Shown piece after piece: positions 579 through 42,759 of a stretch of 64,000 nt of DNA (within the stretch, counting starts at the first letter, position 1; each line of letters starts with the position of its first letter). Made by a program: the position numbers and the translations under genes. The DNA lies in the NCBI GenBank assembly GCA_015207585.1, contig JADEWQ010000001.1, positions 1-64,000 of the forward strand, written 5' to 3'. A model generated the notes under the pieces. It made no database searches, was not told where the DNA came from, and worked only from the letters and a program-made list of their open reading frames with translations. This stretch comes from Pleurocapsales cyanobacterium LEGE 06147 (lineage in GTDB: Bacteria > Cyanobacteriota > Cyanobacteriia > Cyanobacteriales > Xenococcaceae).

Positions 579-1580
579 ATGCAAGTGGTTTTTTTTGGTA
601 CGCCTGCATTTGCCGTTCCTACTCTAGAACGCTTACTCAATCATCCCAACTTTGATGTCCTTGCTGTGGTTACCCAACCAGATAAGCGACGGGGAAGAGG
701 CAATGAAATGATGCCCTCTGCGGTTAAACAAGTAGCCCTCAAGCATAGTTTATCCATCTGGCAACCCAAACGAGTCAAAAAAGACCGACAAACTCTTGCT
801 AAGCTCAAAGAATCGGGCGCGGATGCTTTTGTCGTTGTCGCCTACGGACAGATTCTTTCTCCTGAAATTTTGGCGATGCCCAAACTAGGCTGTATCAACG
901 TTCACGGTTCGCTCCTGCCCAAGTATCGGGGTGCGGCACCGATTCAGTGGAGTATCTATAACGGCGAGACAGAAACAGGAATCACCACGATGTTAATGGA
1001 TGAGGGGATGGATACGGGAGATATGCTCCTAAAAACCTATATTTCCATTGGATTGCTAGATAACGCTTACCAGCTAGCTGCTACTCTAGCAGATCGAGGA
1101 GCGGATCTAGCGATCGAGACTCTACTCAAACTAGAAAAACAGGAACTTACACCGATTCCTCAAGATGATTCTCAAGCTACCTATGCTCCTTTAATTCAAA
1201 AGTCTGATTATGCCATTGACTGGTCGCGTACTGCGATTGAAATACACAATCAAATTAGAGGCTTTTTTCCTAACTGTTTTGCTACCTTTCGCGATCGCTC
1301 GCTAAAAATCTTAGCAACCGTACCGTTAGGAAAAACTTATTTGCCGCAATTACCAGCAGAATTACAAATTTTAGAAGACAACTGGACAGCTTTAGCATCT
1401 TTGACAGGAGATCCAGGAGAAATAGTAAGTAATTTAAAAAACTTGGGTCCAGTAGTCCAGACTGGAAAAGGACTGTTGCTACTAAGAGAAGTGCAGCTTG
1501 CTGGTAAACGTCCTCAGTCTGGATGGAATTTTGTTAATGGAATGCGCCTGTCTGTAGGAGAAGTTATTAGTAATGGCTAG
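579..1580 (+). CDS. fmt: Methionyl-tRNA formyltransferase
   Basis: Formylates the amino group of initiator Met-tRNA using 10-formyltetrahydrofolate, in the cytoplasm, for translation initiation. The N-terminal formyltransferase fold shows GTPAFAVPT (7-15), VVVAYGQ (85-91), the catalytic loop [15 protein letters not shown] (107-121, Asn and His) and [10 protein letters not shown] (140-149, catalytic Asp). The C-terminal OB-like tRNA-binding domain begins near residue 205 ([10 protein letters not shown]). Its 333 residues are normal for the family. The ATG is the only start that leaves the first beta-strand [11 protein letters not shown] intact. There is no def (peptide deformylase) partner in the window, so the gene appears monocistronic. 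Confidence 0.97.
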
Positions 1581-1683
1581 TGTTTATTTAAACAATTAAT
1601 TTTGCTTCACGCAAAGGCGCAAAGGACGCAAAGTTTAAGATACTTTATCTTGTTCCCCGTTCTTTATCTAACAAGCATTAGCC

Positions 1684-2040
1684 CTAATCGATGGGTTCGT
1701 AATAGCGACAACCTTGGCAGGGTCCTTCGGGATTGACAGCACAACGAAAAATTTCCGATCTGGCATTAAAACGACAACTGGCATTGCCGATAACCCAACG
1801 TCCTTCAATTAAACTTTTTTCACTCGGTCGTCGCGATTCTTGAACGTGGAGAGCAATTTTTTGTAAACAATAGCCACCAACCTTATATTGATAGTGGTGG
1901 TGGCGTTCGAGAACGGCGTAAGTTTTACCTGCTAGTTCTAGATAGTTGCCTGGTTGAGGCATCCAATCGAGGTGAATTTTTCCCAAAGTTTTGCGGGGAT
2001 GGGTCAAAATGACCTCAGTGGGTAGTGAATCTGGCTCCAT
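1684..2040 (-). CDS. DUF6464-type cyanobacterial protein
   Basis: A 118-residue soluble protein of unknown function, resembling the cyanobacterial family I know as DUF6464. An N-terminal beta-rich part (PGNYLELAGKTYAVLERHHH) is followed by a C-terminal cluster of four cysteines: CRFNARSEIFRC, then CQGC, in the pattern C-x10-C-x8-C-x2-C, which looks like a metal site. It lies downstream of the acyl-AMP ligase on the same strand, with a 136-bp gap containing a genomic repeat. Co-transcription is therefore uncertain. No function is proposed. Confidence 0.75.
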   Translation of the reverse strand: MEPDSLPTEVILTHPRKTLGKIHLDWMPQPGNYLELAGKTYAVLERHHHYQYKVGGYCLQKIALHVQESRRPSEKSLIEGRWVIGNASCRFNARSEIFRCAVNPEGPCQGCRYYEPID

Positions 2041-2080
2041 GGGCGATCCTGTATTGTTAGTTACATCTGAAAATGGTAAC

Positions 2081-2114
2081 GCGGTGCGGCAGCACTCGCC
2101 AAGCGAGATCGCCC
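2081..2114. repeat. Short GC-rich genomic repeat copy
   Basis: GCGGTGCGGCAGCAC followed by CGCCAAGCG and GATCGCCC. The same block, with CGCTGCGCG in the middle, recurs at 42882-42914. It carries a central imperfect palindrome and sits in the gap between the DUF6464 and acyl-AMP ligase genes. It is one copy of a family of short insertion-prone repeats in this window. Confidence 0.6.
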
Positions 2115-2176
2115 CCTTCCTTTCATGTGTTTTAGAATACTTCTACATTTAGATTCTTGTTAATTGGTTATTTAAT

Positions 2177-4054
2177 TCACATATTCAGTATTTGGTAGAG
2201 GGCGCGTCTTACCTTACCTCCCAGCATACCCGAATATCGTTTTAGATGAGTCATGGGATTGAGGTATCTTTGTATAACCGAAGCAATATCGTTGCGACTG
2301 CCTTCGGGCGATCGCCACTCGCCAATTCCATTTAAGCTACCTGCTAAAAATTGCTCTCGACAGAGGCGACGCTGTATTTTTCCGCTAGAAGTTCTGGGTA
2401 AACTGCCTGGCTTGAGTAAAGTGATGGCATAGACATCGATTAAATGTTCTCGAAAAACAGCCCAACGAATAGCTTCTACCACTTCATCTACAACCAGATG
2501 TTGGCGATGACGGCGTTCTATTTCATGAGCGATCGCTAATTTTTCTTCTCCTTCTATTGAAATGGCAAAAGCAGCACCACCATTGGTATGTAAGGCGGGA
2601 TGACATTTTTCTACTGTTTGCTCGATATGTTGGGGATAATGGCTGAGTCCCCAAAACATCATCACTTCTTTGAGGCGACCTGTAATAAATAATTCTCCAT
2701 CGAGTAGAAAGCCTAAATCTCCGGTGCGCAAAAAAGGTCCTTCACCCGTATCTTTAATATAAGCCTGAAAAGTACGCTCTGTCTCTTCTGGCATATTCCA
2801 GTAGCCTTTAGCTATTCCCCTACTCGCTACCCAAATTTCGCCGACTCGCTCATCCGGACACTGAGTTAACGATTGAGGATCGACAATGACAATTTTCTCG
2901 TCTAACCATGTTCTCCCACAACTGATAACGGAGCGAACTTGTTTTTGTTGGCTGTCAGCTATAACTACTCGATTTTGTTCGAGGGCAGTTTCTTCAAAAT
3001 ATTTAATTACGGGTGGGTCTGTTTTTAGTCCGCCAGTAATAAATAAAGTTGCCTCTGCCATGCCGTAGCAGGGATAAAATGCCTCTCTACGAAAACCACA
3101 ATTGGCAAAAGAGCGAGCAAACTCTTCTATGGTTTCGGTACGAATCGGTTCGGCACCGCAGAAAGCTAATTCCCAACTACTAAGATCGAGATTTTCTTTC
3201 TGTTTTTGGGTCACTTGCCGACACAAGAGGTCATAGGCGAAATTGGGACCGCCGCTAATGGTTCCTCCATAGCGGGAGACAGCTTGCAGCCAGCGAATTG
3301 GCTTTTGAATAAAGGAAATAGGAGACATGAGAACACAGGGAATGCCCAGGTAGAGGGAATGCAAGACATTACCAATTAGTCCCATATCGTGGAACAAGGG
3401 TAACCAGCCAACTCCCACACTTTGTTCGTTACCATCAAAGGCAAGCTCTAGCATTTGCTGATTGGACATCATGCATTCGTGGGTAATCATTACCCCTTTA
3501 GGCATTCCAGTAGAACCAGAGGTGTATTGCAAAAAGGCAAGAGTATCTTTGTTGATGTCTGGTTCGCGCCAATCGTCGGCTCGGTCGATCCCAATTTCCT
3601 GTATGGTCAACCACACTAATTCATTTAATGCCTCGCCAGAGAGAGAATCGGCTAGCTGGTTCTTAATTTTACCGACAAGTTGTTTGGTAGTCAGTATGAC
3701 TTTTGCCTCAGAAGAAGCCAGCCTACCTTGCAGAGAGCGGACGGCAGAACGGGTTTGGGGTGGATTAGACGAGACGGCAACAATTCCGGCATAAAGACAA
3801 CCAAAAAAGGCGGTAATAAATTCTATGCCAGCATTGTAGGGATAGATTAATACTACTCTGGAGCCACTAGGAATTAGGGAACGGAGTCGCAGAGCGATCG
3901 CTCTTGCTTGTCGATCTAACTCAAAATAAGTAATTTTATCTTCCTTGGTTTCTCCATCTCGCAAGAAAATATAAGCAGTCTTATGAGGTTGATGCTGCGC
4001 TCTATAACGCAACAATTCTACTAAAGTTGAATGATTAACTTTTTGTTTTTGCAT
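2177..4054 (-). CDS. Fatty acyl-AMP ligase (FAAL-like)
   Basis: A 625-residue adenylate-forming enzyme expected to activate a fatty acid as acyl-AMP for an acyl carrier protein or another acceptor. Motifs are YTSGSTGMPKG (177-187, phosphate loop), CYGMAEATLF, RTGDLGF and, near the C-terminus, SSGKIQR with the catalytic Lys. The FCGAEPIR and YGMAEATLF blocks match FAAL rather than acetyl-CoA synthetase. The hinge motif reads GRLKEVMMFWGLSHYP, where family members usually have GRxKDxIIxRGxNHYPQDIE, so the conserved Arg and Asn are replaced. No polyketide synthase, carrier protein or thioesterase is adjacent. Acceptor and product are unknown. Confidence 0.88.
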   Translation of the reverse strand: MQKQKVNHSTLVELLRYRAQHQPHKTAYIFLRDGETKEDKITYFELDRQARAIALRLRSLIPSGSRVVLIYPYNAGIEFITAFFGCLYAGIVAVSSNPPQTRSAVRSLQGRLASSEAKVILTTKQLVGKIKNQLADSLSGEALNELVWLTIQEIGIDRADDWREPDINKDTLAFLQYTSGSTGMPKGVMITHECMMSNQQMLELAFDGNEQSVGVGWLPLFHDMGLIGNVLHSLYLGIPCVLMSPISFIQKPIRWLQAVSRYGGTISGGPNFAYDLLCRQVTQKQKENLDLSSWELAFCGAEPIRTETIEEFARSFANCGFRREAFYPCYGMAEATLFITGGLKTDPPVIKYFEETALEQNRVVIADSQQKQVRSVISCGRTWLDEKIVIVDPQSLTQCPDERVGEIWVASRGIAKGYWNMPEETERTFQAYIKDTGEGPFLRTGDLGFLLDGELFITGRLKEVMMFWGLSHYPQHIEQTVEKCHPALHTNGGAAFAISIEGEEKLAIAHEIERRHRQHLVVDEVVEAIRWAVFREHLIDVYAITLLKPGSLPRTSSGKIQRRLCREQFLAGSLNGIGEWRSPEGSRNDIASVIQRYLNPMTHLKRYSGMLGGKVRRALYQILNM

Positions 4055-4386
4055 CGAGCAAGTTAACTAGATCGCGATAGCACGGTCGCGTAAAAATATA
4101 GCAGACTCGATCGTAATTTTGAGGAAATTATTTCAATAGATTCGCCTCGCGCTGATAAATTAACTAATTTGATACATAGCCATAAGGGTAATGCGATCGC
4201 CGATCGCTTTTGGGAAGATGACGAGGCGAGCGCATATGGTTTAAATCATGCCTGGCAAATAATGTTTTTTAAGTAAATCGATAATTTATTCTGAATTTAC
4301 GCGACAACGCTTGACTTTTCCTGGCATCAGCACGATACTGGGAGCGTGTTTACACTGTTTTTTACTATTCCGATTGAGTCAATATA
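4055..4386. other. Intergenic, no gene
   Basis: AT-rich spacer between two minus-strand genes with HIP1-like GCGATCGCCGATCGC at 4194-4208. No reading frame, RNA structure or clear promoter could be supported. Confidence 0.6.
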
Positions 4387-5100
4387 TTAATAATCACGCC
4401 TTTGTGCAAATTCGAGATCGGCGAAATTTTGGCTGTTGCGCAGCAGATTTTCCGTCATTTTAGCCAGTTCGTCTAGTCGTTCTTCCAATTGAGTTGCTCG
4501 TTGCTTATAGTTCCTTTTTTTGCTCAAAGCTGCACGAGCAAGATCGTCTCGGTTCATTTGCACTGCCTTTCTAGCTACTTTATCCCAAACCTCCATTTCT
4601 GCAAGAGTTTGTTTATACTCTGGTTGTACTCGATCCCAAACTACTTTGATATCGGCTAAAGCCTGATGCAATAGTCTCTGTGCATTGTTAGAGTTTGTTT
4701 CTTCCAAAGACTCTTGGACTGGTTGATAGAGGTTGTCAATATTTAGTTTAGCGATCGCGGGAACAAAATCTCTAATTTGTTTGCTATCGCTTATTCCTAT
4801 TTTGCACCAAGTAGCAAAATGTTCGCAGTTGTTAAATAGCAGGTTATATTTTTTTTCTCCCAGGCGACTTTCTGCCCTTTCTACTACCACCTCGGGAACA
4901 AAACAAAATCCTTCAGTATATTGCTTGACATAAACTAAATTACCTCGGCTAAAAGTAGCCAAAGAAGTACGCTCAATAACTTCGCTTGGCTTGCGGTAAT
5001 GGATGACAGTACCGTCACCGCAGTTAATGCCGTGATGCTCGTATATTCCGCCTATATTAAAAAGTTCCCTGTAGACGTAAATTTGATCGCCGCGCGCCAT
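4387..5100 (-). CDS. LRAT-domain (NlpC/P60-superfamily) protein
   Basis: A 237-residue soluble protein. The first ~125 residues carry the lecithin-retinol acyltransferase fold: GDQIYVYRE, a catalytic His in YEHHGINCGDGTVIHY (about 21-36) and the nucleophile Cys in LLFNNCEHFATWC (about 87-99). This circularly permuted papain-like family includes acyltransferases and phospholipases. The remaining ~110 residues are charged and predicted helical or coiled coil (ALADIKVVWDRVQPEYKQTL and an ERLDELAKMTENLLR tail). No signal peptide or membrane segment is visible. It is a single gene with free flanks. Substrate cannot be inferred; the coiled coil suggests self-assembly or partner binding. Confidence 0.82.
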   Translation of the reverse strand: MARGDQIYVYRELFNIGGIYEHHGINCGDGTVIHYRKPSEVIERTSLATFSRGNLVYVKQYTEGFCFVPEVVVERAESRLGEKKYNLLFNNCEHFATWCKIGISDSKQIRDFVPAIAKLNIDNLYQPVQESLEETNSNNAQRLLHQALADIKVVWDRVQPEYKQTLAEMEVWDKVARKAVQMNRDDLARAALSKKRNYKQRATQLEERLDELAKMTENLLRNSQNFADLEFAQRRDY

Positions 5101-9020: not shown

Positions 9021-9203
9021 GTGAGGTACACCATAAAGCGATCGCCTCTCAATCCGCAAGCGCTTAAGCAGATTTTGACGCAAAATACCAAAGAGCTTAC
9101 AGCGCCGGGCGAATTAAGCAAGAATCTTGCTCCAATCATGGAGAAATACGAAGTGTCTATGCTCGATGGCGATCGCCTAAAAATATCAAGCCACAGGAGC
9201 TAA
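9021..9203 (+). CDS. Hypothetical 60-residue protein
   Basis: A GTG-started frame immediately after the TAA of the propeller gene (TAAGTGAGG), coding 60 residues with a helical first half ([19 protein letters not shown]) and no recognised domain. Its 3' end overlaps the convergent serC by 18 bp. The lack of a gap suggests translational coupling, or else a decayed extension of the upstream gene. I do not recognise it, and coding status is uncertain. Confidence 0.35.
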
Positions 9204-10364
9204 CTCAGCTTTCACATTAGCGTATGCCCAGTCTAACCAGGGAAGCAAAGCCTCAATATCTTCCGTTTCGACTGTTGCTCCTCCCCAAATACGCAATCCG
9301 GGTGGCGCAGCTCGATAAGATGCAATATCGTAAGCTACTTCCTGTTTTTCTAAAAGTTTCGCTACTTTTTTGGCGCATTTAGCTTGTTCTTCTGAACTAA
9401 GACTAGTAAACCAAGAATCGACAATTTTCAAGCAAATTGAGGTGCAAGAGCGAGTCTCCGGTTTTTCTGCCAAAAAATCTGCCCAACTACTTCGTGCTAC
9501 CCAATTAGCGATCGCGTTTAGGTTAGCTTCGCTGCGACGAATCAAGCCAGGCAGTCCGCCAACACTTTCTGCCCACGTCAAGCCATCGAGGGCATCTTCT
9601 ACACACAACATCGATGGTGTGTTAATAGTATCTCCCTTGAAAATACCTTCAATTAGCTTTCCTTTTTTTGTCAGGCGAAAGAGTTTGGGTATGGGCCACG
9701 CTGGTTGATAATTTTCGAGTCGTTCGACAGCACGGGGTGAGAGTACGATCACTCCATGTTGTGCTTCTCCACCCAATACTTTTTGCCAAGAGTAAGTAAG
9801 CACGTCTAACTTATCCCAGGGTACGTCCATGGCAAAAACAGCAGACGTAGCATCGCAGATAGTAAGTCCCTGACGATCGTCCTTTATCCAATCGCCATTG
9901 GGCACTCTGACACCTGAAGTAGTGCCATTCCACAAAAACACCACATCATGACTAAAATCAACTTTGTTTAAATCGGGCAAACTGCCATAGGGTGCCTTCA
10001 TTAGACGAAGATCGGGTAACCTTAACTCATCTACGACATCTTTGACCCATTCTTGACCGAAATTTTCCCAGGCAAGGATATCGAGGGGTCTTTGTCCCAG
10101 CAGCGACCATAATGCCATTTCTACTGCACCAGTGTCGGAAGCAGGAACGATACCTAGACGATAATCAGCAGGAACACCTAAAATTTTCTTGGAACGTTCA
10201 ATAACTTCTGCCAATTTAGCTTTACCATCTTCAGAGCGATGGGAACGACCTACACAGGCGTTTTGAAGATTGGTAACAGACCAGCCAGGGCGTTTTGCAC
10301 AAGGACCAGAGGAGAAATGAGGAACGCGAGGTTTAATTTTTGGAGAGATTAGATATTCTGACAT
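9186..10364 (-). CDS. serC: Phosphoserine aminotransferase
   Basis: Converts 3-phosphohydroxypyruvate and glutamate to phosphoserine and 2-oxoglutarate (serine biosynthesis; PLP enzyme, cytoplasm). The 392 residues belong to the second SerC subfamily, shared with alphaproteobacteria and some archaea, judging from [14 protein letters not shown] at the N-terminus and [17 protein letters not shown] binding: [15 protein letters not shown] (Asp) and [15 protein letters not shown] (Schiff-base Lys). The substrate-binding Arg region GLRIWGG lies near the C-terminus. The ATG fits [17 protein letters not shown]. It converges with the small frame at 9021 and overlaps it. No serA lies in the window. Confidence 0.93.
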
Positions 10365-10568
10365 GAGTGCTGAGATGCAGCATTAGGATCACGTAGTAAT
10401 ATAGCAGTTCTCAGTGCTTTTCGTAGATTATATCCCGCGATTAATTTTAATAGATCGCCCCTGGGGTTTTGATCGAAACATTCGCGATCGCCTTACCCTG
10501 AAATCAAATAACAATTGCACCATGGCTTTCGGTGAATAAATTATTTAAGTATTTTTATTTTGAATGGC

Positions 10569-10723
10569 GCGATCGCATTCTTCAGCATTCAATTAGCTTC
10601 AGTAAAAAGCGATCTCGAAGTCGCACCATTCTTCTCTTTAACAGGCGATCGTCCTGCTTATTCCATTTTGAAAAACAGCGATCGCATTCTTCAGCATTAA
10701 ATTATCCTCGGTAAAGAGCGATC
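10569..10723. repeat. Pair of 46-bp HIP1-bounded direct repeats
   Basis: Copy A (10569-10614) and copy B (10678-10723) both start with GCGATCGCATTCTTCAGCAT and end in AGCGATC, differing at about five of 46 positions. Further GCGATC sites lie between and after them, directly upstream of hicA. This is a tandem-like cluster of HIP1 palindromes with a shared spacer, not a gene; a 60-codon frame across it has no support. Confidence 0.7.
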
Positions 10724-10771
10724 GCTCTCATAGCTATAGAATTGATTAAAATAAAATTGGCTTTCTTTCAA

Positions 10772-10972
10772 ATGCCTAAGAAAATTAAAGAACTAAAAAA
10801 ATTGCTAAGAAAAGCTGGATTCACTGAAAAAGCAGCTAAAGGAAGTCATACAAAATGGTCGCATCCCCTGCTATCTAGAAAACTAATATTATCGGGAAAA
10901 GACGGGGATGACGCTAAACCTTATCAAGAAAAAGATGTCGAACGAGCTATTGAAAAAATTAAAGAGATTTAA
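10772..10972 (+). CDS. hicA: HicA-type mRNA interferase toxin
   Basis: A 66-residue double-stranded-RNA-binding-fold toxin of a type II system. It has the family pattern MPKKIKELKKLLRKAGF, then KGSHTKWSHP with the catalytic His, and ends KDVERAIEKIKEI. I start at the ATG at 10772: the in-frame TTG 30 bp upstream adds a hydrophobic decapeptide foreign to HicA. Expected to cleave mRNA at the ribosome when free of HicB. It is followed 20 bp later by hicB, so one operon. HicA with HicB is the usual order. Confidence 0.88.
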   Translation: MPKKIKELKKLLRKAGFTEKAAKGSHTKWSHPLLSRKLILSGKDGDDAKPYQEKDVERAIEKIKEI

Positions 10973-10992
10973 CAACGACAAGGAGAAGATTG

Positions 10993-11217
10993 ATGCAAAA
11001 TCGCTACACCATATTAATTCAGTGGTCAGATGAAGATCGATGCTATGTAGTGAGTTTGCCAGAATGGGGAGAATTTTGCCACACTCACGGCAATACATAC
11101 GAAGAAGCTCTAAAAAATGCACAAGAGGTACTAGAGCTATTAATCGAATCAGCTAAAGAAGATGGCGAACCGCTACCCAAACCTCAGACTTGGCAAAGTT
11201 CTTTTCGAGTAGCGTGA
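10993..11217 (+). CDS. hicB: HicB-type antitoxin
   Basis: A 74-residue partner with the partial RNase-H-like HicB fold: RYTILIQWSDEDRCYVVSLPEWG, then THGNTYEEALKNAQEVLELL. It ends at residue 74 without a C-terminal DNA-binding domain, so autoregulation may depend on another protein or be absent. An AGGAGA ribosome-binding site lies at 10981-10986, 6 bp before the ATG; the TTG one codon earlier is less likely. Co-transcribed with hicA. Confidence 0.88.
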   Translation: MQNRYTILIQWSDEDRCYVVSLPEWGEFCHTHGNTYEEALKNAQEVLELLIESAKEDGEPLPKPQTWQSSFRVA

Positions 11218-11460
11218 ATTACTCAACAGGAAATTTATGATGCGATGTGGGGAACTTCGGAAAGCATTATTTTTGACAGTAGAATTGGAATGGAATAGGT
11301 GAATGTTGGGTTTCGCTTTCGCTTAACCCAACCTACGGACCAGCGATCGCCCCATGGAGTTGGCATGACCTGATTACCTATCCCACACTTTGCTGATGCA
11401 CTACCCGGAGATTTTCGATCGCCACTAATTAAACATAAGAAGAAGAGAAAGGAAAAAAAC

Positions 11461-12819
11461 TTAAAATTGAGAGCGAAATTGCTCGACAACTCGGTTGAGT
11501 CCCACCGAATTAGACGCTTTAAACAACAAGCGATCGCCTTGGCGAACTACTTCTTGTAAACTATTAAGCAAATCTTCGCGATCGCTAAAACATTCTGTAG
11601 CTATTCCCCCTGCACCAGCGGCAATGGCTTCTGTTTCTGGTTCGTCCACTAAAACAAATAAACGATCGATGTCTAGTTGTTTAACTTTTTCCCCTACTTG
11701 ATAATGGAATTGGGCAGAGTGTTCTCCTAACTCTTTCATCGTACCCAATACGGCTATGTGTCGTTTTCCTGGTGTTTCTTTCAATAGTTGCAGCGAGGCG
11801 AGCATCGACTCTAAACCGGCATTATAAGTTTCGTCGAGAATCACTATATCATCAGGTAAAGCATAACGACGCGATCGCCCTTGGGGTAACTCAACGGTCA
11901 AACCTTCCGTGAGTGGGGTAATATCTATCTCTAGTACTTTGGCTACCGCGATCGCTGCGAGATAATTAATCGCGTTATGACAACCGGATAGGGGTAAAGG
12001 AAAGTTTTTTCCTTCTATTCGCAACGTGTTGGGATCGATTAGTTCTCCCCTAACATCTCCTCCTTGTAAACCATAAGTAATCGTTTCACCTTGCCATACC
12101 GTTGCTGCGGTATCCATTAGTAATTGATTATCGTGATTCAATACGGCTATACTAGAGCCTGGCATCCGAGCCAGTAATTCGCATTTAGCTCTAGCGATCG
12201 CCTCGATCGAACCCAGCCTGCCGATATGAGCCGTACCTACGTTAGTAATGACTCCAATTGTCGGTTGGGTAATTTCCGTTAACAGGGCAATTTCTCCTGC
12301 GGCGCGCATTGCCATTTCAATGACCGCATAATCATCTTCTTGGTCTAATTCTAGTAAGGTTTTGGGTACGCCAATTTCGTTGTTATAGTTGGCTTGGGTT
12401 TTGAGTACCCTTCCACGAAAACTTAAAAGAGCAGCAATTAGTTCTTTTGTAGTCGTTTTCCCTACAGAACCGGTAATGCCAATAACTGGAATAGTAAAGC
12501 GATCGCGCCACCAACGAGCAATTGTTTGGTAAGCTTGCAAAGTGTCTGGGACGATTAATTGAGGTATGGTTCGAGCCGAATTGAGTGACAACTGACGGGA
12601 AACAATTAACGCAACTGCGCCTTTGGCTATTGCCGTAGGGGCAAAATTATGTCCATCAAATTTCTCTCCTTCTAAAGCGACAAATAGTTCTCCTGGTTTG
12701 AGATTGCGAGTATCAGTCGTGATGCCTGTAATTGATGTTGTTAAATCTATCGTATGGATATAGAAGGGATCGGTTTTGAGAATTTTACTGAGTTGAAAAA
12801 GAGAAAGTGTCAGAGTCAT
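11461..12819 (-). CDS. murF: UDP-N-acetylmuramoyl-tripeptide--D-Ala-D-Ala ligase
   Basis: Adds D-Ala-D-Ala to the UDP-MurNAc-tripeptide with ATP, the last cytoplasmic step of the peptidoglycan precursor. Domains in order: N-terminal UMP-binding (ITTDTRNLKPGELFVALEGE), central ATPase with P-loop GITGSVGKTTTKEL and the YNNEIGVP block, and the C-terminal domain with DETYNAGLESMLASL. I start at the ATG at 12819 (MTLTLSLFQL); an upstream TTG adds only five residues. About 452 residues is normal. It is not in a dcw-type cluster here, as usual for cyanobacteria. Confidence 0.95.
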   Translation of the reverse strand: MTLTLSLFQLSKILKTDPFYIHTIDLTTSITGITTDTRNLKPGELFVALEGEKFDGHNFAPTAIAKGAVALIVSRQLSLNSARTIPQLIVPDTLQAYQTIARWWRDRFTIPVIGITGSVGKTTTKELIAALLSFRGRVLKTQANYNNEIGVPKTLLELDQEDDYAVIEMAMRAAGEIALLTEITQPTIGVITNVGTAHIGRLGSIEAIARAKCELLARMPGSSIAVLNHDNQLLMDTAATVWQGETITYGLQGGDVRGELIDPNTLRIEGKNFPLPLSGCHNAINYLAAIAVAKVLEIDITPLTEGLTVELPQGRSRRYALPDDIVILDETYNAGLESMLASLQLLKETPGKRHIAVLGTMKELGEHSAQFHYQVGEKVKQLDIDRLFVLVDEPETEAIAAGAGGIATECFSDREDLLNSLQEVVRQGDRLLFKASNSVGLNRVVEQFRSQF

Positions 12820-25415: not shown

Positions 25416-26648
25416 TCATTTATTAACTCCTACTGCTTCAATAGCTGCCTCCAGAGCGATCGCTATGTGGGTCCAATGAGTACCTCCCTGGCAAAAGACA
25501 ATATAGGGTTCTCGCAAAGGACCATCGGCAGAAAATTCTGAAGTACTACCATCAATAAATGTCCCGCCAGCCATTACTAGTTGGCTTTCATACCCGGGCA
25601 TATCTGCAGGAACTGGGTCTAAGTAGGAATCAATCGCAGAATGCTGTTGAATTGCTCGACAAAAAGAAATAAGTTTATCCGGCGAACCCAACTCGATTGC
25701 CTGAATTACGTCGCGACGGGGTACTAAAGGTAAGGGATTGACTCGATAACCCAGCTTGTCGAACACATAAGCAATCAAATGACTTCCCTTAACTGCTTCT
25801 CCTACCATTTGGGGAGCGAGAAAAAATCCTTGGAATAACAACCGATTTTGGTCTAAAGTTGCGCCGCCACTACTGCCAATACCCGGTGCAGTCAAACGAC
25901 AGGCTGCCGCTTCTACTAACTCAGCTTTTCCCGCCACGTAACCACCAGTGGCAACAATCGTTCCCCCAGGATTTTTAATCAGCGAACCTGCTATTAAATC
26001 TGCACCGATTGCTGTTGGTTCTCGATCTTCAATAAACTCGCCGTAACAGTTATCCACAAAACAAACAGTATGGGGATTTTGCTGCTTGACAATAGAGACA
26101 ATCTTTTCGATCTCGGCGATGGATAAACTCTGTCGCCAGGAATAACCACAAGAACGCTGAATGAGAACTAGACGCGTATTGTCTCTAACTGCAGTACTAA
26201 GTGCCGACCAATTAATAGTTCCTTCTTTAGTTAGAGATAACTGGCGATAGAGAATGTTAAACTCAGCTAGTGAACATTGCGAATTTCCTCTAATACCGAT
26301 TACTTCTTCGAGAGTATCGTAGGGCGATCCTGCCACGGCTAGCATTTCGTCTCCCGGACGAAGTACGCCAAAGAGTGCACAGGCGATCGCATGAGTACCG
26401 GAAACAAATTGTATCCTTACTGCGGCTGCTTCTGCACCCATCACTTGGGCAAAAACGCGATCTAAAGCTTCTCTTCCCAGGTCATCGTGTCCATAACCGC
26501 TAACACTAGCAAAATGGCGGACACCAACACGATGATAATTAAAGGCTTGTAACACTTTTCTTACATTTTGCTTGACCTGGGTGTCAATTCCAGAAAAAAT
26601 CGGTAATAGCTCTTTTTCTGCTTTTTGTAGCAGATTATTGCTGTTCAT
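25416..26648 (-). CDS. Methionine-gamma-lyase-like PLP enzyme (YnbB/aluminium-resistance family)
   Basis: 410-residue fold-type I PLP enzyme of the family annotated as aluminium resistance or methionine gamma-lyase-like. Shows FASVSGYGHDDLGREALDRVFA, FVSGTHAIACALFG (cofactor phosphate), CFVDNCYGEFIEDREP (PLP Asp), GSLIKNPGGTIVATGGYVAG (Schiff-base Lys) and GIGSSGGATLDQNR. The true substrate is not established; a C-S lyase on a sulfur amino acid is the usual proposal. Single gene with a low-complexity repeat upstream. Confidence 0.92.
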   Translation of the reverse strand: MNSNNLLQKAEKELLPIFSGIDTQVKQNVRKVLQAFNYHRVGVRHFASVSGYGHDDLGREALDRVFAQVMGAEAAAVRIQFVSGTHAIACALFGVLRPGDEMLAVAGSPYDTLEEVIGIRGNSQCSLAEFNILYRQLSLTKEGTINWSALSTAVRDNTRLVLIQRSCGYSWRQSLSIAEIEKIVSIVKQQNPHTVCFVDNCYGEFIEDREPTAIGADLIAGSLIKNPGGTIVATGGYVAGKAELVEAAACRLTAPGIGSSGGATLDQNRLLFQGFFLAPQMVGEAVKGSHLIAYVFDKLGYRVNPLPLVPRRDVIQAIELGSPDKLISFCRAIQQHSAIDSYLDPVPADMPGYESQLVMAGGTFIDGSTSEFSADGPLREPYIVFCQGGTHWTHIAIALEAAIEAVGVNK

Positions 26649-26699
26649 TAGTCAATGGAGATGCCAATTTGTTTGCCAATCATCTATCGAAAAGCATTT

Positions 26700-27111: not shown

Positions 27112-27945
27112 ATGACTGTTGTTACATCAAATAAACTTCCTCTAGATTGGAACGTTATTATTTACATGGCTACCATTCACTTGGTAGCATTATTAGCCCT
27201 TTTTCCTAGCAACTTCAGTTGGGGAGCATTGGGCGTTGCTTTTATCCTCTACTGGATTACCGGTGGTTTCGGTATTACTTTAGGTTTTCATCGTCTAGTT
27301 ACCCACCGTAGTTTTGAAACTCCTAAATGGCTAGAATATTGCTTGATTTTGTGCGGTACCCTTGCCTGTCAGGGAGGACCGATTGATTGGATTGGCTTGC
27401 ATCGAATCCATCATAAATATTCAGATGCTGGTGGCGATCCTCATGATTCTAATCGTGGTTTTTGGTGGACTCATATGGGATGGATGATATATCAAAATCC
27501 TGCCAATAAAGATATTCCCCGTTACACACACGATATTGCCGATGACCCCTTTTATCGATTTTGCCAAAATTTTTTCATTCCTATCCAAATCGTCTTAGGC
27601 TTGTTTTTATACTTCTTGGGGGGTTGGTCTTTTGTAATTTGGGGCATTTTTGTCCGCTTGGTAGTAGTATTTCACTGCACTTGGTTTGTCAATAGTGCTA
27701 CTCACAAATTTGGCTATAAGAGCCATGAATCTAACGATAACTCCAAAAACTGTTGGTGGGTAGCTTTACTGACTTTTGGCGAAGGCTGGCATAACAATCA
27801 CCATGCCTATCAATATTCTGCTCGTCACGGTTTGCAATGGTGGGAAATAGATACCACTTGGATTAGTATTAGGCTACTTCAATTCCTTGGTTTGGCCAAG
27901 AATATTAAATTGCCACCTAAAGAACTAAAATCAGTCAAAGCCTAA
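27112..27945 (+). CDS. desC: Acyl-lipid delta-9 fatty-acid desaturase
   Basis: 277-residue membrane di-iron enzyme that introduces the first double bond into glycerolipid-bound stearate or palmitate in thylakoid and plasma membranes, with ferredoxin as donor. The three histidine boxes are visible: HRLVTHR (H-x4-H), HRIHHKYSDAGGDPH (H-x2-HH) and GEGWHNNHHAYQYSARHG (H-x2-HH). Hydrophobic segments are about 14-50 and 155-190. It matches the cyanobacterial DesC type. ATG directly after an AAATTTTGAATAAAG leader with no strong ribosome-binding site. Confidence 0.95.
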   Translation: MTVVTSNKLPLDWNVIIYMATIHLVALLALFPSNFSWGALGVAFILYWITGGFGITLGFHRLVTHRSFETPKWLEYCLILCGTLACQGGPIDWIGLHRIHHKYSDAGGDPHDSNRGFWWTHMGWMIYQNPANKDIPRYTHDIADDPFYRFCQNFFIPIQIVLGLFLYFLGGWSFVIWGIFVRLVVVFHCTWFVNSATHKFGYKSHESNDNSKNCWWVALLTFGEGWHNNHHAYQYSARHGLQWWEIDTTWISIRLLQFLGLAKNIKLPPKELKSVKA

Positions 27946-28704
27946 ACAGAGCTAAGTGGTAAGAGATATTAGGTAGTAGATATTAAGTAGTTAATTTTTA
28001 AATACTGAATATCTGTTACCTACTTTTTTTAGTTTAAAGTTTTAGGCAAGATTCTTTAAACTCCGAACTTTATACAAGTGAAAACTGCTTTAATATCGGT
28101 TGCAACTTGTTGACAGTCGAGCGTTAAATCAAAGATTTTAAGGCACGATTCCTGCTTCACAACCTCTTAACTAGACACAGCCCTAAAACTATGCCCCCGC
28201 CAGACTGATTCCACAAGCATTCTATGTTAGAGTCCAAGATCTGCCCTACCGCCGACTTTTTGCAATTAATGTTAACCAATTAATATGCTCCCCCAGACTC
28301 GCAATAAACTTTTACGCTCCCAGCGAGCGATCTGAGACTTCTGGTTACAACCCATGTTTATTTCGTTTTCTAGGTTCGCTTGTTCGTGAGGCTCGGGATC
28401 CTTACTACCGAACAAGAGTATGATACATCGCTTGAAACCACTGGTATATAAAGATTATGTGTCGAAAATGTAAATTACATCATCCTGACCGCGATTCATC
28501 TCCCGCTAACCGCAAGCGGTTTAACGGAAGTCCTCTCGCGGAGACTAGATAGATTTATCAGTTTTGAGGGAAAACTATTCTAAAGACTTCCCAAGCAAGT
28601 TAATTCCTAACTAGGAGCAACTACTTGCTGAAGAAGGATGACCGAGACTTCCATTTTGAAAAAAGAGTGAAGTCGCTTGATATAGTAATTCCCTTAAAAC
28701 TTTT
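27946..28704. other. 759-bp intergenic region with structured remnants
   Basis: No gene. 27950-28060 is AT-rich with repeated AGATATTA. 28190-28420 is GC-richer, with an 8-bp inverted repeat CTTGTTCG / CGAACAAG (28379-28417). 28469-28541 holds a nested hairpin described separately. The composition differs from the flanks and probably marks the wreck of an IS200/IS605-like element. Confidence 0.5.
28469..28541. repeat. Nested hairpin, possible IS200/IS605 end
   Basis: ATGTAAATTACAT (28469-28481) is a small palindrome. It is followed by an outer stem CCGCGA (28489-28494) with TCGCGG (28536-28541), enclosing AACCGC (28508-28513) with GCGGTT (28516-28521). Two stacked hairpins of this kind resemble the subterminal structures of single-strand transposons. 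No transposase fragment was found beside it. Confidence 0.4.
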
Positions 28705-29553
28705 ATGTTTTCTATTTATATACTTACCTATAACGAACAAATCGATATAGCTGATTGCATTGAATCTGCTTTACTATCAGATGATGTTATCATAGTCGAT
28801 TCCTTTAGTACAGATCGTACTATCGAAATTGCCTCCCGTTATCCCGTCCGTATTGTCCAACACGAGTTTGAAAGTCATGGTAAACAACGGACTTGGATGT
28901 TAGAAGCCATCGAGACTAAACACGAATGGGTATACATTCTTGAAGCGGACGAACGGATGACTCCAGAACTATTTGCTGAATGTATTGCAGCAACTAAAAG
29001 TCAAGCAGCGATCGCCTACTATGTAGCAGAGAGGGTAATGTTTATGAATAAATGGATTCGCTACAGTACCCAGTACCCTCGCTATCAACTGCGTCTATTT
29101 CAAAAAGGAAAAGTCTGGTTTACTGACTACGGTCATACCGAACGAGAGGTATGTGATGGACTGACTGGTTTTCTAAGAGAAACATATCCCCACTACACTT
29201 CTGGGAAAGGTTTAAGTCGCTGGATTGACAAGCATAACCGTTATTCTAGCGACGAAGCGAGAGAAACAATTTGTCAACTAGCTGAAGGAAAGGTTATTTG
29301 GCACGATTTATTTTGGGGTAAGTCGGAAGTAGAAAAAAGACGCGCCCTCAAAGATTTATCTCTCCGTCTACCTTGTCGACCAATAGTACGCTGGATTTAT
29401 ATGTACTTTTTACTGCGGGGATTTCTGGATGGTAAGGCAGGTTTTGTCTGGTGTACTCTACAAGCTTTTTATGAATATTTAATTTTGCTAAAAATAGAGG
29501 AAATAAAACAACAACAATTACAAACAGCTACATTCAAAGCAAAATCTCTGTAA
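28705..29553 (+). CDS. Family-2 glycosyltransferase (WaaE/LpsC-like)
   Basis: 282 residues, GT-A fold: FSIYILTYNEQIDIADCIES, VIIVDSFSTDRTIEIA and the metal-binding EADERMTPEL (in place of DxD). The Tyr-rich region QLRLFQKGKVWFTDYGHTE matches the LPS core beta-glucosyltransferase group. A C-terminal amphipathic or short hydrophobic region (WIYMYFLLRGFLDGKAG) suggests membrane association. Likely adds a sugar to a cell-surface glycan. Neighbouring surface-glycan genes start at 31165. ATG chosen; no alternative start. Confidence 0.9.
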   Translation: MFSIYILTYNEQIDIADCIESALLSDDVIIVDSFSTDRTIEIASRYPVRIVQHEFESHGKQRTWMLEAIETKHEWVYILEADERMTPELFAECIAATKSQAAIAYYVAERVMFMNKWIRYSTQYPRYQLRLFQKGKVWFTDYGHTEREVCDGLTGFLRETYPHYTSGKGLSRWIDKHNRYSSDEARETICQLAEGKVIWHDLFWGKSEVEKRRALKDLSLRLPCRPIVRWIYMYFLLRGFLDGKAGFVWCTLQAFYEYLILLKIEEIKQQQLQTATFKAKSL

Positions 29554-29802
29554 ATACTCGCTTGTAGACTGCTGAAGATACGAAGCTATTTATTATTAAA
29601 AGAGCATGTGGACAGATTACTGGTAAAATAGATTGTTGCGATCGCCAAAACTTATTTTGCTGGTAGCATAATTCTTCCCAAACTTGGCAATATGCGAGAG
29701 CAAGTCGACAGTGAAATTCAAGCAAGAGCAGAAAAAGTATGCCAAGCAATATCGGCATAGTTTTCGTCAAAAATCTTATCAATAAACAAATTACCAGGCA
29801 AA
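29554..29802. other. Intergenic, no gene
   Basis: One HIP1 site near 29639 and short open stretches on both strands with no recognisable product. It lies inside the putative transposon whose end is proposed at 29803-29869. Confidence 0.4.
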
Positions 29803-29869
29803 AGACAGTAATCTGACAAAAATGACACTAATTTGTTTTGCCAAAACGACCTTAATTTGATAATCAACA
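29803..29869 (-). mobile_element. Possible Tn7/CAST-like transposon end next to tRNA-Gly
   Basis: Read towards lower coordinates, the sequence starts with TGT (29869-29867), then carries three diverged direct repeats of a (T)GACAnTAATTTG-type site: CGACCTTAATTTG (29847-29859), TGACACTAATTTG (29823-29835) and AGACAGTAATCTG (29803-29815), at 24 and 20 bp spacing. Terminal TGT plus spaced sites of this form are how TnsB-type transposases mark the ends of Tn7-like and type V-K CAST elements, which favour DNA just past tRNA genes. The end lies 10 nt beyond the tRNA 3' base. No transposase or Cas12k gene is in the window, so it is a remnant at best. Confidence 0.45.
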
Positions 29870-29879
29870 AAACATTTTA

Positions 29880-29950
29880 AGCGGGTGGGGGGAATCGAAC
29901 CCCCATCATTAGCTTGGAAGGCTAAGGTTTTACCACTAAACTACACCCGC
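29880..29950 (-). tRNA. tRNA-Gly(TCC)
   Basis: 71 nt on the minus strand. Acceptor GCGGGTG (5') pairs with CACCCGC (3') and U is the discriminator base, normal for Gly. D-arm TAGTTTAGTGGTAAAACC, anticodon stem-loop TTAGCCTTCCAAGCTAA with anticodon TCC, T-arm GGGGGTTCGATTCCCCC. CCA is not encoded. All helices pair, so it should be functional. Confidence 0.96.
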
Positions 29951-30810
29951 AGCAAAACTTTATTTCTGTCGCGTAGATAATGTTAACACAAGTTGAGCCG
30001 TTCTCGTCAAGCCTCTAATTGTGATGAATTTCTAATTGATTCTTAATTGAAATGTGAGAGGTTTGCTCATTCCTTGCGAGCGGCTTTTGCTGCGCCTTTG
30101 GCAATTTTGCCAAATTAACTTAGTTCTAGCAATGAGCTACGGCAACCAATACCAATATTTGGATAATTATAAATTATTCTGTTTGCTCTATGGCAATCCT
30201 ATTAGGTCTTGTATCCGGCTGAACATTGAGTTGTGAATTTATCTTTGAGAAATAGAATAAACAAGAAACTATCTCGGTGAAATTCTTTAAGAGTATTTAC
30301 GGTATTTGACAATGTTAATATTTGAAACTTTAAAGATAGTGTTATATTGTCGTTATCTAAATGATTGATTATGATGTTATTATTTGTCAAAGCTTTTTTA
30401 AGCTAAGTAAAAATGCCTGGAAACTCCCTAAAAAAAAGTCATAATTGTCAATTCAATAAAATATTTTTTTCGCTCGAGTTAGCTATAGCGGTTTTTAATT
30501 AGATAAGATATAGAGCTCAAAGAATAATTCGCGCGTTCGAGCATTAAAAACTATTCTCTTTTTTGAACACATTTGCTGTCCTCTTCACTCTGTTCGGGGC
30601 TTCGGCTTAGTACAGTGCATGCTCTATACGGACGTAGCATGCTACGTCTACCAAGAATTGCTAGAGATAATGTCACTAAGATCGCTTGGGCTAATATATC
30701 GATGCAACAAGATTAACAACAAACGGAATTCTTCAGTTACTTTTGGAAATTTCTTAATCAATCCAAAAACCAATTTTGCTGCAATTATTCTATTGGGGAA
30801 AACATATCTG
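29951..30810. other. 860-bp intergenic region, no supported gene
   Basis: AT-rich. Short frames at 30054 and 30619 have no ribosome-binding site or recognisable product. 30580-30650 carries a GC-richer block with imperfect palindromes (GACGTAGCATGCTACGTC). Nothing else could be supported. Confidence 0.5.
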
Positions 30811-40248: not shown

Positions 40249-40590
40249 ATGAAAAAAATTTGTCTATTTCTGTATAAGTTAACAGCAGCTACTTTCCCCG
40301 TAGAAAAATTATGTAGCAAGTCTACGCAAGCAGCATTATATACAGACTGGGGTTTAGCTGTAGCAGCCTGTCTGGAAAAGGATACAGCTCGTGCTATACA
40401 AATCAAACCTGTCAAACACTCATCTAGTCAAGCAGATCGCTTTGCTCATTCTTTTGTTTCTTACCATGAAGGTTGCTACCATCTTCAAAATTTAGAGTGG
40501 TGTAAAGCAATTAAACCTCTTCAGCAAGCTCAATCTGAAATCAAAACTAAGTCTGATTGGTGTAAGGAAATAGATAGACTCTTAGCGCCA
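40249..40590 (+). pseudogene. Fragment of an Hsp70-locus partner gene fused to transposase
   Basis: Residues 1-112 of a 288-codon frame (KSTQAALYTDWGLAVAACLE, FVSYHEGCYHLQNLEWCKAI) are TPR-like and unrelated to the transposase that follows in the same frame from LAPSKSKAGRGRKR. The chimeric frame is an accident of insertion, not a designed fusion. Original function unknown. Confidence 0.55.
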
Positions 40591-41115
40591 TCCAAGTCAA
40601 AAGCAGGAAGAGGGAGAAAAAGAACTGTAGACGAGAGAGAAATTGTGAATGCGGTTCTCTATTGGAGTCGAAGTGGTTGTCCTTGGGAACTACTGCCTCA
40701 TGACTTTCCAGATTACAAAACGGTATACAGCTACTTCCGTAGTTGGCAAAGAAAAGGAGTTTGGGAACGAATTCACGCACAATTAACAACTAAAGTACGT
40801 CTTCAAGAAGGTAAACAAGAAACCGCAACCGCAGCAATCATTGATAGCCAGTCAGTGAAAACAAGCGAAAGCGGGGGTAATGAGCGAGGATTTGAGGGCG
40901 GGAAACGAATTAAAGAAGGTTGCCAGTTAAATTTAGAAGTCGTCAAACGACAATCGAAACAGTTTGAGATTCTTCCTCGAAGATGGGTCGTCGAACGCAC
41001 TTTTGCTTGGCTTGGAAAACAAAGACGTTTAAGTAAAGACTATGAGCGACTACCATCCGTCAGCGAATCTGTAGTTTACATTGCGATAGTCTTAGAACTT
41101 TTCCCTAGATCTTAA
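40591..41115 (+). pseudogene. IS5-family transposase, internally deleted
   Basis: SKSKAGRGRKRTVDEREIVN, then VLYWSRSGCPWELLPHDFP and VYSYFRSWQRKGVWERIH, match the N-terminal half of IS5-type transposases. IIDSQSVKTSESGG has the first catalytic Asp. After GGKRIKEG the middle (with the second Asp) is missing and the frame resumes at LEVVKRQSKQFEILPRRWVV, ERTFAWLGKQRRLSKDYE (catalytic Glu). About 75-90 residues are deleted in frame and the first ~20 residues are also gone. Inactive. Confidence 0.85.

Positions 41116-41609: not shown

Positions 41610-42759
<1,150 letters not shown>

Follow-up and report, generated by a model that had tools for sequence, protein, structure and literature searches.

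In published cyanobacterial CASTs the left end lies downstream of a tRNA that points toward the element, with a truncated anchor spacer and a GTN PAM 46–82 nt from the left end (PMC9938897); the architecture of cyanobacterial CASTs is also described in PMC11406308. The 64,000-nucleotide stretch of DNA analysed here (the window), from Pleurocapsales cyanobacterium LEGE 06147, holds what is, with high confidence, the left end, on the tRNA side, of a type V-K CAST at tRNA-Gly(TCC) that is now dead and truncated. A sequence-only reading had proposed that a CAST-family element once inserted at this site and left one end behind, a proposal borne out by a Cas12k fragment, by an end profile, and by relatives with the same layout, including one at the same tRNA-Gly.

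Eroded end and Cas12k fragment

Three diverged GAC(A)nTAATnTG sites had been claimed in the sequence-only reading, together with an inward TGT at 29869 and a tRNA-Gly(TCC) 3′ end at 29880; the sites are real, each starting one base further right than first placed (Table 1), the inward-reading TGT (ACA on the plus strand) ends where described, and ARAGORN agrees on the tRNA 3′ end, 10 bp away. The middle repeat, GACACTAATTTGT, is an exact copy of repeats in the CAST ends of relatives, for example L060 and L108. The locus shows the arrangement expected of a type V-K left end, with repeated TnsB sites and a TGT terminus lying downstream of a tRNA that points at the element; the terminus is eroded to TGTTGA as read inward (TGTACA in most relatives), so that the exact boundary is a predicted one. 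If the terminus is rightly placed, the 10-bp spacer would hold one copy of a 5-bp target duplication (AAACA); the corresponding gaps in relatives span ∼2–44 bp.

Table 1. Coordinates of the features at the tRNA-Gly(TCC) locus, in window positions.
Feature	Position	Strand	Remarks
Left junction, remnant with GT2 downstream side	29554-29601	.	GT2 stop 29553; cas12k alignments start 29602-29606 in 3/4 cases
Cas12k pseudogene fragment, ∼60 codons, C-terminal RuvC region	29602-29782	+	One in-frame TAG, one 29-nt frameshifting deletion
Inner TnsB-type repeat GACAGTAATCTGACA	29804-29818	+	Window sequence
Middle TnsB-type repeat GACACTAATTTGT	29824-29836	+	Window sequence
Terminal TnsB-type repeat GACCTTAATTTGA	29848-29860	+	Window sequence
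Terminal repeat with eroded terminus TCAACA	29848-29869	+	Compare L060 GACGCTTAATTTGTGAATGTACA
Spacer, element terminus to tRNA	29870-29879	.	10 bp
tRNA-Gly(TCC), attachment site, directed toward element	29880-29950	-	ARAGORN
Predicted homing protospacer in tRNA	29914-29933	-	PAM GTA 29931-29933 + 17 nt AAACCTTAGCCTTCCAA; inferred from relatives' rule

Directly inside the end repeats, at the expected place and in the expected orientation, lies a Cas12k fragment matching the NCBIfam Cas12k profile NF038191 (G000:C134:29596-29745 +, E 2.5e-16, profile positions 517-566, one TAG), the sole significant Cas12k profile match in the 6.2-Mb genome of the strain, with all others at E of at least 0.01. 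The relic reads KEHVDRLLVK*IVAIAKTYFAGSIILPKLGNMREQVDSEIQARAEK and, after the frame-shifting deletion, KKYAKQYRHSF. At the nucleotide level it aligns over 29602-29781 to intact cas12k genes of other genomes, with the one TAG and a 29-nt gap, at ∼80–85% identity over 50 bp; 29644-29736 aligns to the Cas12k gene of relative G011 in matching orientation. Amino acid identity is 69% over 45 aa with G011 Cas12k; against Cas12k from elsewhere in the order it rises to as much as 82%, over 34 aa. The fragment is a pseudogene whose homology attests descent rather than function, and it is its presence that settles the reading as a CAST remnant, since the repeats alone would be suggestive only. A minus-strand ORF at 29534-29782, considered as a gene of its own, has no family match and is simply the reverse of the cas12k relic.

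V-K elements at tRNAs in related genomes

The genome of the strain (6.2 Mb, 244 contigs) and 27 genomes of the same family were searched. An opposing tRNA lies directly downstream of Cas12k at 21 of the 23 family Cas12k loci (the other two have none in the stretch fetched), in the order Cas12k, end repeats, opposing tRNA, as in the window; the tRNAs concerned are Val, Asn, Phe, Thr, Cys, Arg, Tyr, Pro, Lys, Gly and Ser, and most family ends carry TnsB-type repeats with TGTACA or CGACA termini adjoining the tRNA. In G011 (L057) a V-K CAST end lies ∼10 bp past tRNA-Gly, 97% identical to the window's (TCTTTAAATT|TGTACAGTGACACTTTATTTGTC), and the element interior contains frames for Cas12k (PADLOC E 5e-177; NF038191 E 3e-165), V-K TniQ (E 4e-72) and V-K TnsC (E 2e-55). 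G020 (L060) has a V-K element beside tRNA-Ser, with array-type repeats and a tRNA-matching spacer. A TGTACAGTGAC beside tRNA-Gly in G026 (L038) was weighed as a possible scar of an element terminus but is likely due to chance, because it is accompanied by no further repeats and similar flanks occur in sister genomes.

G011 also carries a block of ∼2.63 kb, running from the left end into cas12k, at both tRNA-Gly and tRNA-Thr, with no mismatches and 2 gaps between the copies (L057, G011:C1:4968500-, 1146-3776; L059, G011:C1:3550000-, 9101-11733). Its anchor spacer, GAGCACACTCTTGGT, fits tRNA-Thr with one mismatch and not tRNA-Gly, so a different guide, off-target insertion or recombination would account for the Gly copy.

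In the end profile the window repeats group best with the CAST subclade L060/L098/L110, and for the Cas12k scrap G011 and other members of the order come closer, such that the pieces give no agreed closest relative. This difference would fit two unrelated relics, with scrap and end derived from different CASTs that inserted one after the other or recombined at this tRNA, as would the elements of G011, whose shared mismatch-free block and differing remaining contents indicate that such blocks may recombine; a single insertion followed by deletions is nevertheless simpler, the parts stand in native order and orientation, and subclade assignment from ∼60 aa and ∼65 bp is weak, which together make two relics improbable, if not negligibly so. 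Descent from one CAST remains the preferred account.

In relatives, the homing spacer mostly follows a TTGAAAG-type repeat end, and a GTN PAM lies in or beside the tRNA, mostly 57–67 nt from the terminus. A GTA at tRNA nt 18–20 in the window stands 61 nt from the terminus at 29869, inside the published 46–82 nt range, a weak test because GTN is common. A homing spacer matching tRNA-Gly, which the sequence-only reading had suggested seeking, was found neither within 28400-29800 nor, allowing up to 3 mismatches, elsewhere in the strain's genome.

The second partial tRNA copy (attL/attR) expected of a tyrosine-integrase island at a tRNA gene was not seen: the strain's genome has no further tRNA-Gly(TCC) copy, its only other match being a diverged tRNA-Gly on C93. 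Separately, G026:C295 (L061) carries, at 3189-3234 and 10512-10583, a 46-nt exact copy of the 3′ part of tRNA-Gly and, 7.3 kb from it, the full tRNA, which resembles the flanks of integrase islands, and similar partial copies occur in G010 and G012.

Missing parts of the element

The window has 209 bp between a conserved Cas12k motif and the tRNA, against 764–1937 bp in 21 relatives, which implies the loss of at least ∼550 bp comprising the Cas12k C-terminus, tracrRNA, CRISPR array and homing spacer; a tracrRNA would have no room between Cas12k and the end. Within the strain's genome, no V-K TnsC was found (best profile E 0.115), PF06527 gave no match for TniQ, with the control silent, and no V-K-type TnsB was identified, the single TnsB-profile match being distant (E 2e-19) and belonging to another Tn7-like element, one that carries a TnsA-like gene. 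No opposite end was detected on either strand of the 64-kb window, where no other end-profile match fell below E 0.6. The locus, for which no V-K TnsB, TnsC or TniQ was found, is thus a remnant only and not a functional member of the family. The earlier suggestion that the other end and the machinery were lost or lay outside the window holds for the opposite end and for V-K TnsC and TniQ; it does not hold for Cas12k, part of which lies inside.

The genome contains a different Tn7-like element (L205; G000:C30, ∼3683-4471), in which a TGA splits a pair of TnsA-like/TnsB-like frames and which also includes a TniB/TnsC-like ATPase.

As V-K CASTs seem to have target immunity (PMC11406308), the worn end might have been kept by selection, as a solo end conferring passive immunity against new V-K insertions at tRNA-Gly, and three sites do remain recognisable with most of the element gone; the sites and terminus have, however, diverged from functional ones, and the sole TnsB-like gene of the strain sits in a different Tn7-like element that includes a TnsA-like domain, with no resident V-K TnsB identified, so that such retention seems very unlikely.

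End-profile statistics

End HMMs were built from the CAST ends of relatives, with the window left out, and run on both strands of the 64 kb. The V-K end model finds its best match here: the six-relative HMM scores 29804-29864 at 18.1 bits (E 1.2e-4; next match E 4.2), and the same site is the top match in the window for the five-relative (E 2.1e-4) and all-28 (E 1.9e-3, 13.9 bits) models, the last being the fairer figure because the relative subsets were picked after the ends had been viewed. In 40 Markov-1 simulated 64-kb windows the maximum was 14.5 bits for the six-relative model and 11.4 bits for the all-28 model.

That the repeats are an ordinary terminator or flank downstream of tRNA-Gly, resembling TnsB sites by chance, could draw on the AT-richness of the flank, the divergence of the repeats, and an end HMM that by itself gives E 1e-4 to 1e-2 for most sets and in one subset (E) misses the site altogether, yet this scarcely credible alternative is refuted by the Cas12k fragment at the predicted place and in the predicted direction. 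Also against it are scores unreached in the simulated windows and the tRNA-Gly(TCC) locus of relatives, where those tested without a CAST have no such repeats downstream of the tRNA.

The GT2 side and surrounding sequence

The GT2 gene at 28705, which had been taken as possible cargo or captured DNA, proves instead to be an ordinary chromosomal gene: counterparts of the aminotransferase-type gene (25432-26699), of the desaturase (27112) and of GT2 follow one another in the same order and direction in G001, G003 and G007, in a stretch without tRNA-Gly, and no tRNA lies within up to ∼3 kb on each side at any of 80 named GT2 loci. Xenococcaceae MAGs are the closest named relatives of the locus. 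In relatives, GT2 does not adjoin tRNA-Gly, and the genus is represented by one genome in the sample; neither an empty site nor a second target duplication was found. The left junction of the remnant falls between the GT2 stop codon and ∼29602, and may have arisen by simple deletion or by a rearrangement.

The gap between desaturase and GT2 (27945-28705) measures ∼760 bp, against ∼200–290 bp in relatives, indicating extra DNA there. Elsewhere in the window, 30480-30615 is a dispersed repeat, pieces of which match at least 4 other places in the strain's genome at 69–88% identity, and transposase genes of IS4/5 type (DUF4096) and IS110 type occupy 40249-41115 and 41818-42759, respectively.

Proposed history of the locus

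The guide sequence, the insertion event, the order of the deletions and the way in which the remnant came to abut GT2 are reconstructed from these comparisons. The complete element would have used a Cas12k-bound 17-nt homing crRNA against tRNA-Gly(TCC), with the GTA PAM, for insertion by TnsB, TnsC and TniQ ∼61 bp downstream of the PAM, at a point 10 bp beyond the 3′ end of the tRNA. Subsequent deletions would have removed the transposition genes, the opposite end and the bulk of cas12k, and a further internal deletion the ≥∼550 bp described above. What is left are ∼60 cas12k codons and three worn TnsB sites, which can now neither yield Cas12k nor guide anything.

The locus illustrates that one end and a scrap of Cas12k suffice to recognise a strongly eroded CAST, and with it tRNA-Gly(TCC) joins the V-K attachment sites of this cyanobacterial family. 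The locus further suggests a pattern of island decay in which the far end, transposition genes and guide RNAs are lost, with a cas12k piece and the tRNA-side repeats lingering. Its use lies in annotation and in counting past CAST insertions, with no mechanism changed.

Comparison with known systems

The remnant resembles the type V-K CASTs ShCAST (Tn7747), AcCAST (Tn7746) and AnCAST of Anabaena 7120 in its Cas12k sequence, TnsB-type end repeats and inward TGT, in its position immediately downstream of a tRNA that points at the element, and in its GTN PAM distance. Unlike these, the window retains no more than a scrap of Cas12k and a single eroded end, with no tracrRNA, array, anchor spacer, or V-K tnsC or tniQ found. 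The order of Cas12k, repeats and opposing tRNA is shared with L057 (G011, at the same tRNA-Gly(TCC)) and L060 (G020, at tRNA-Ser). In contrast to the window, L060 has an intact cas12k frame, an array, an anchor spacer and a TGTACA terminus, and L057 keeps its cas12k, TniQ and TnsC frames, although its anchor spacer fits tRNA-Thr.

Degenerated Cas12k loci were known before (PMC9938897), and the ∼60 codons and single end seen here are akin to the decayed Cas12k described in cyanobacterial CAST settings by Ziemann et al. 2023 (PMC9938897), where 12 degenerated proteins were set aside. Both the CAST family and the layout are already known, and the remnant is a fossil of a known element rather than a working or new system.
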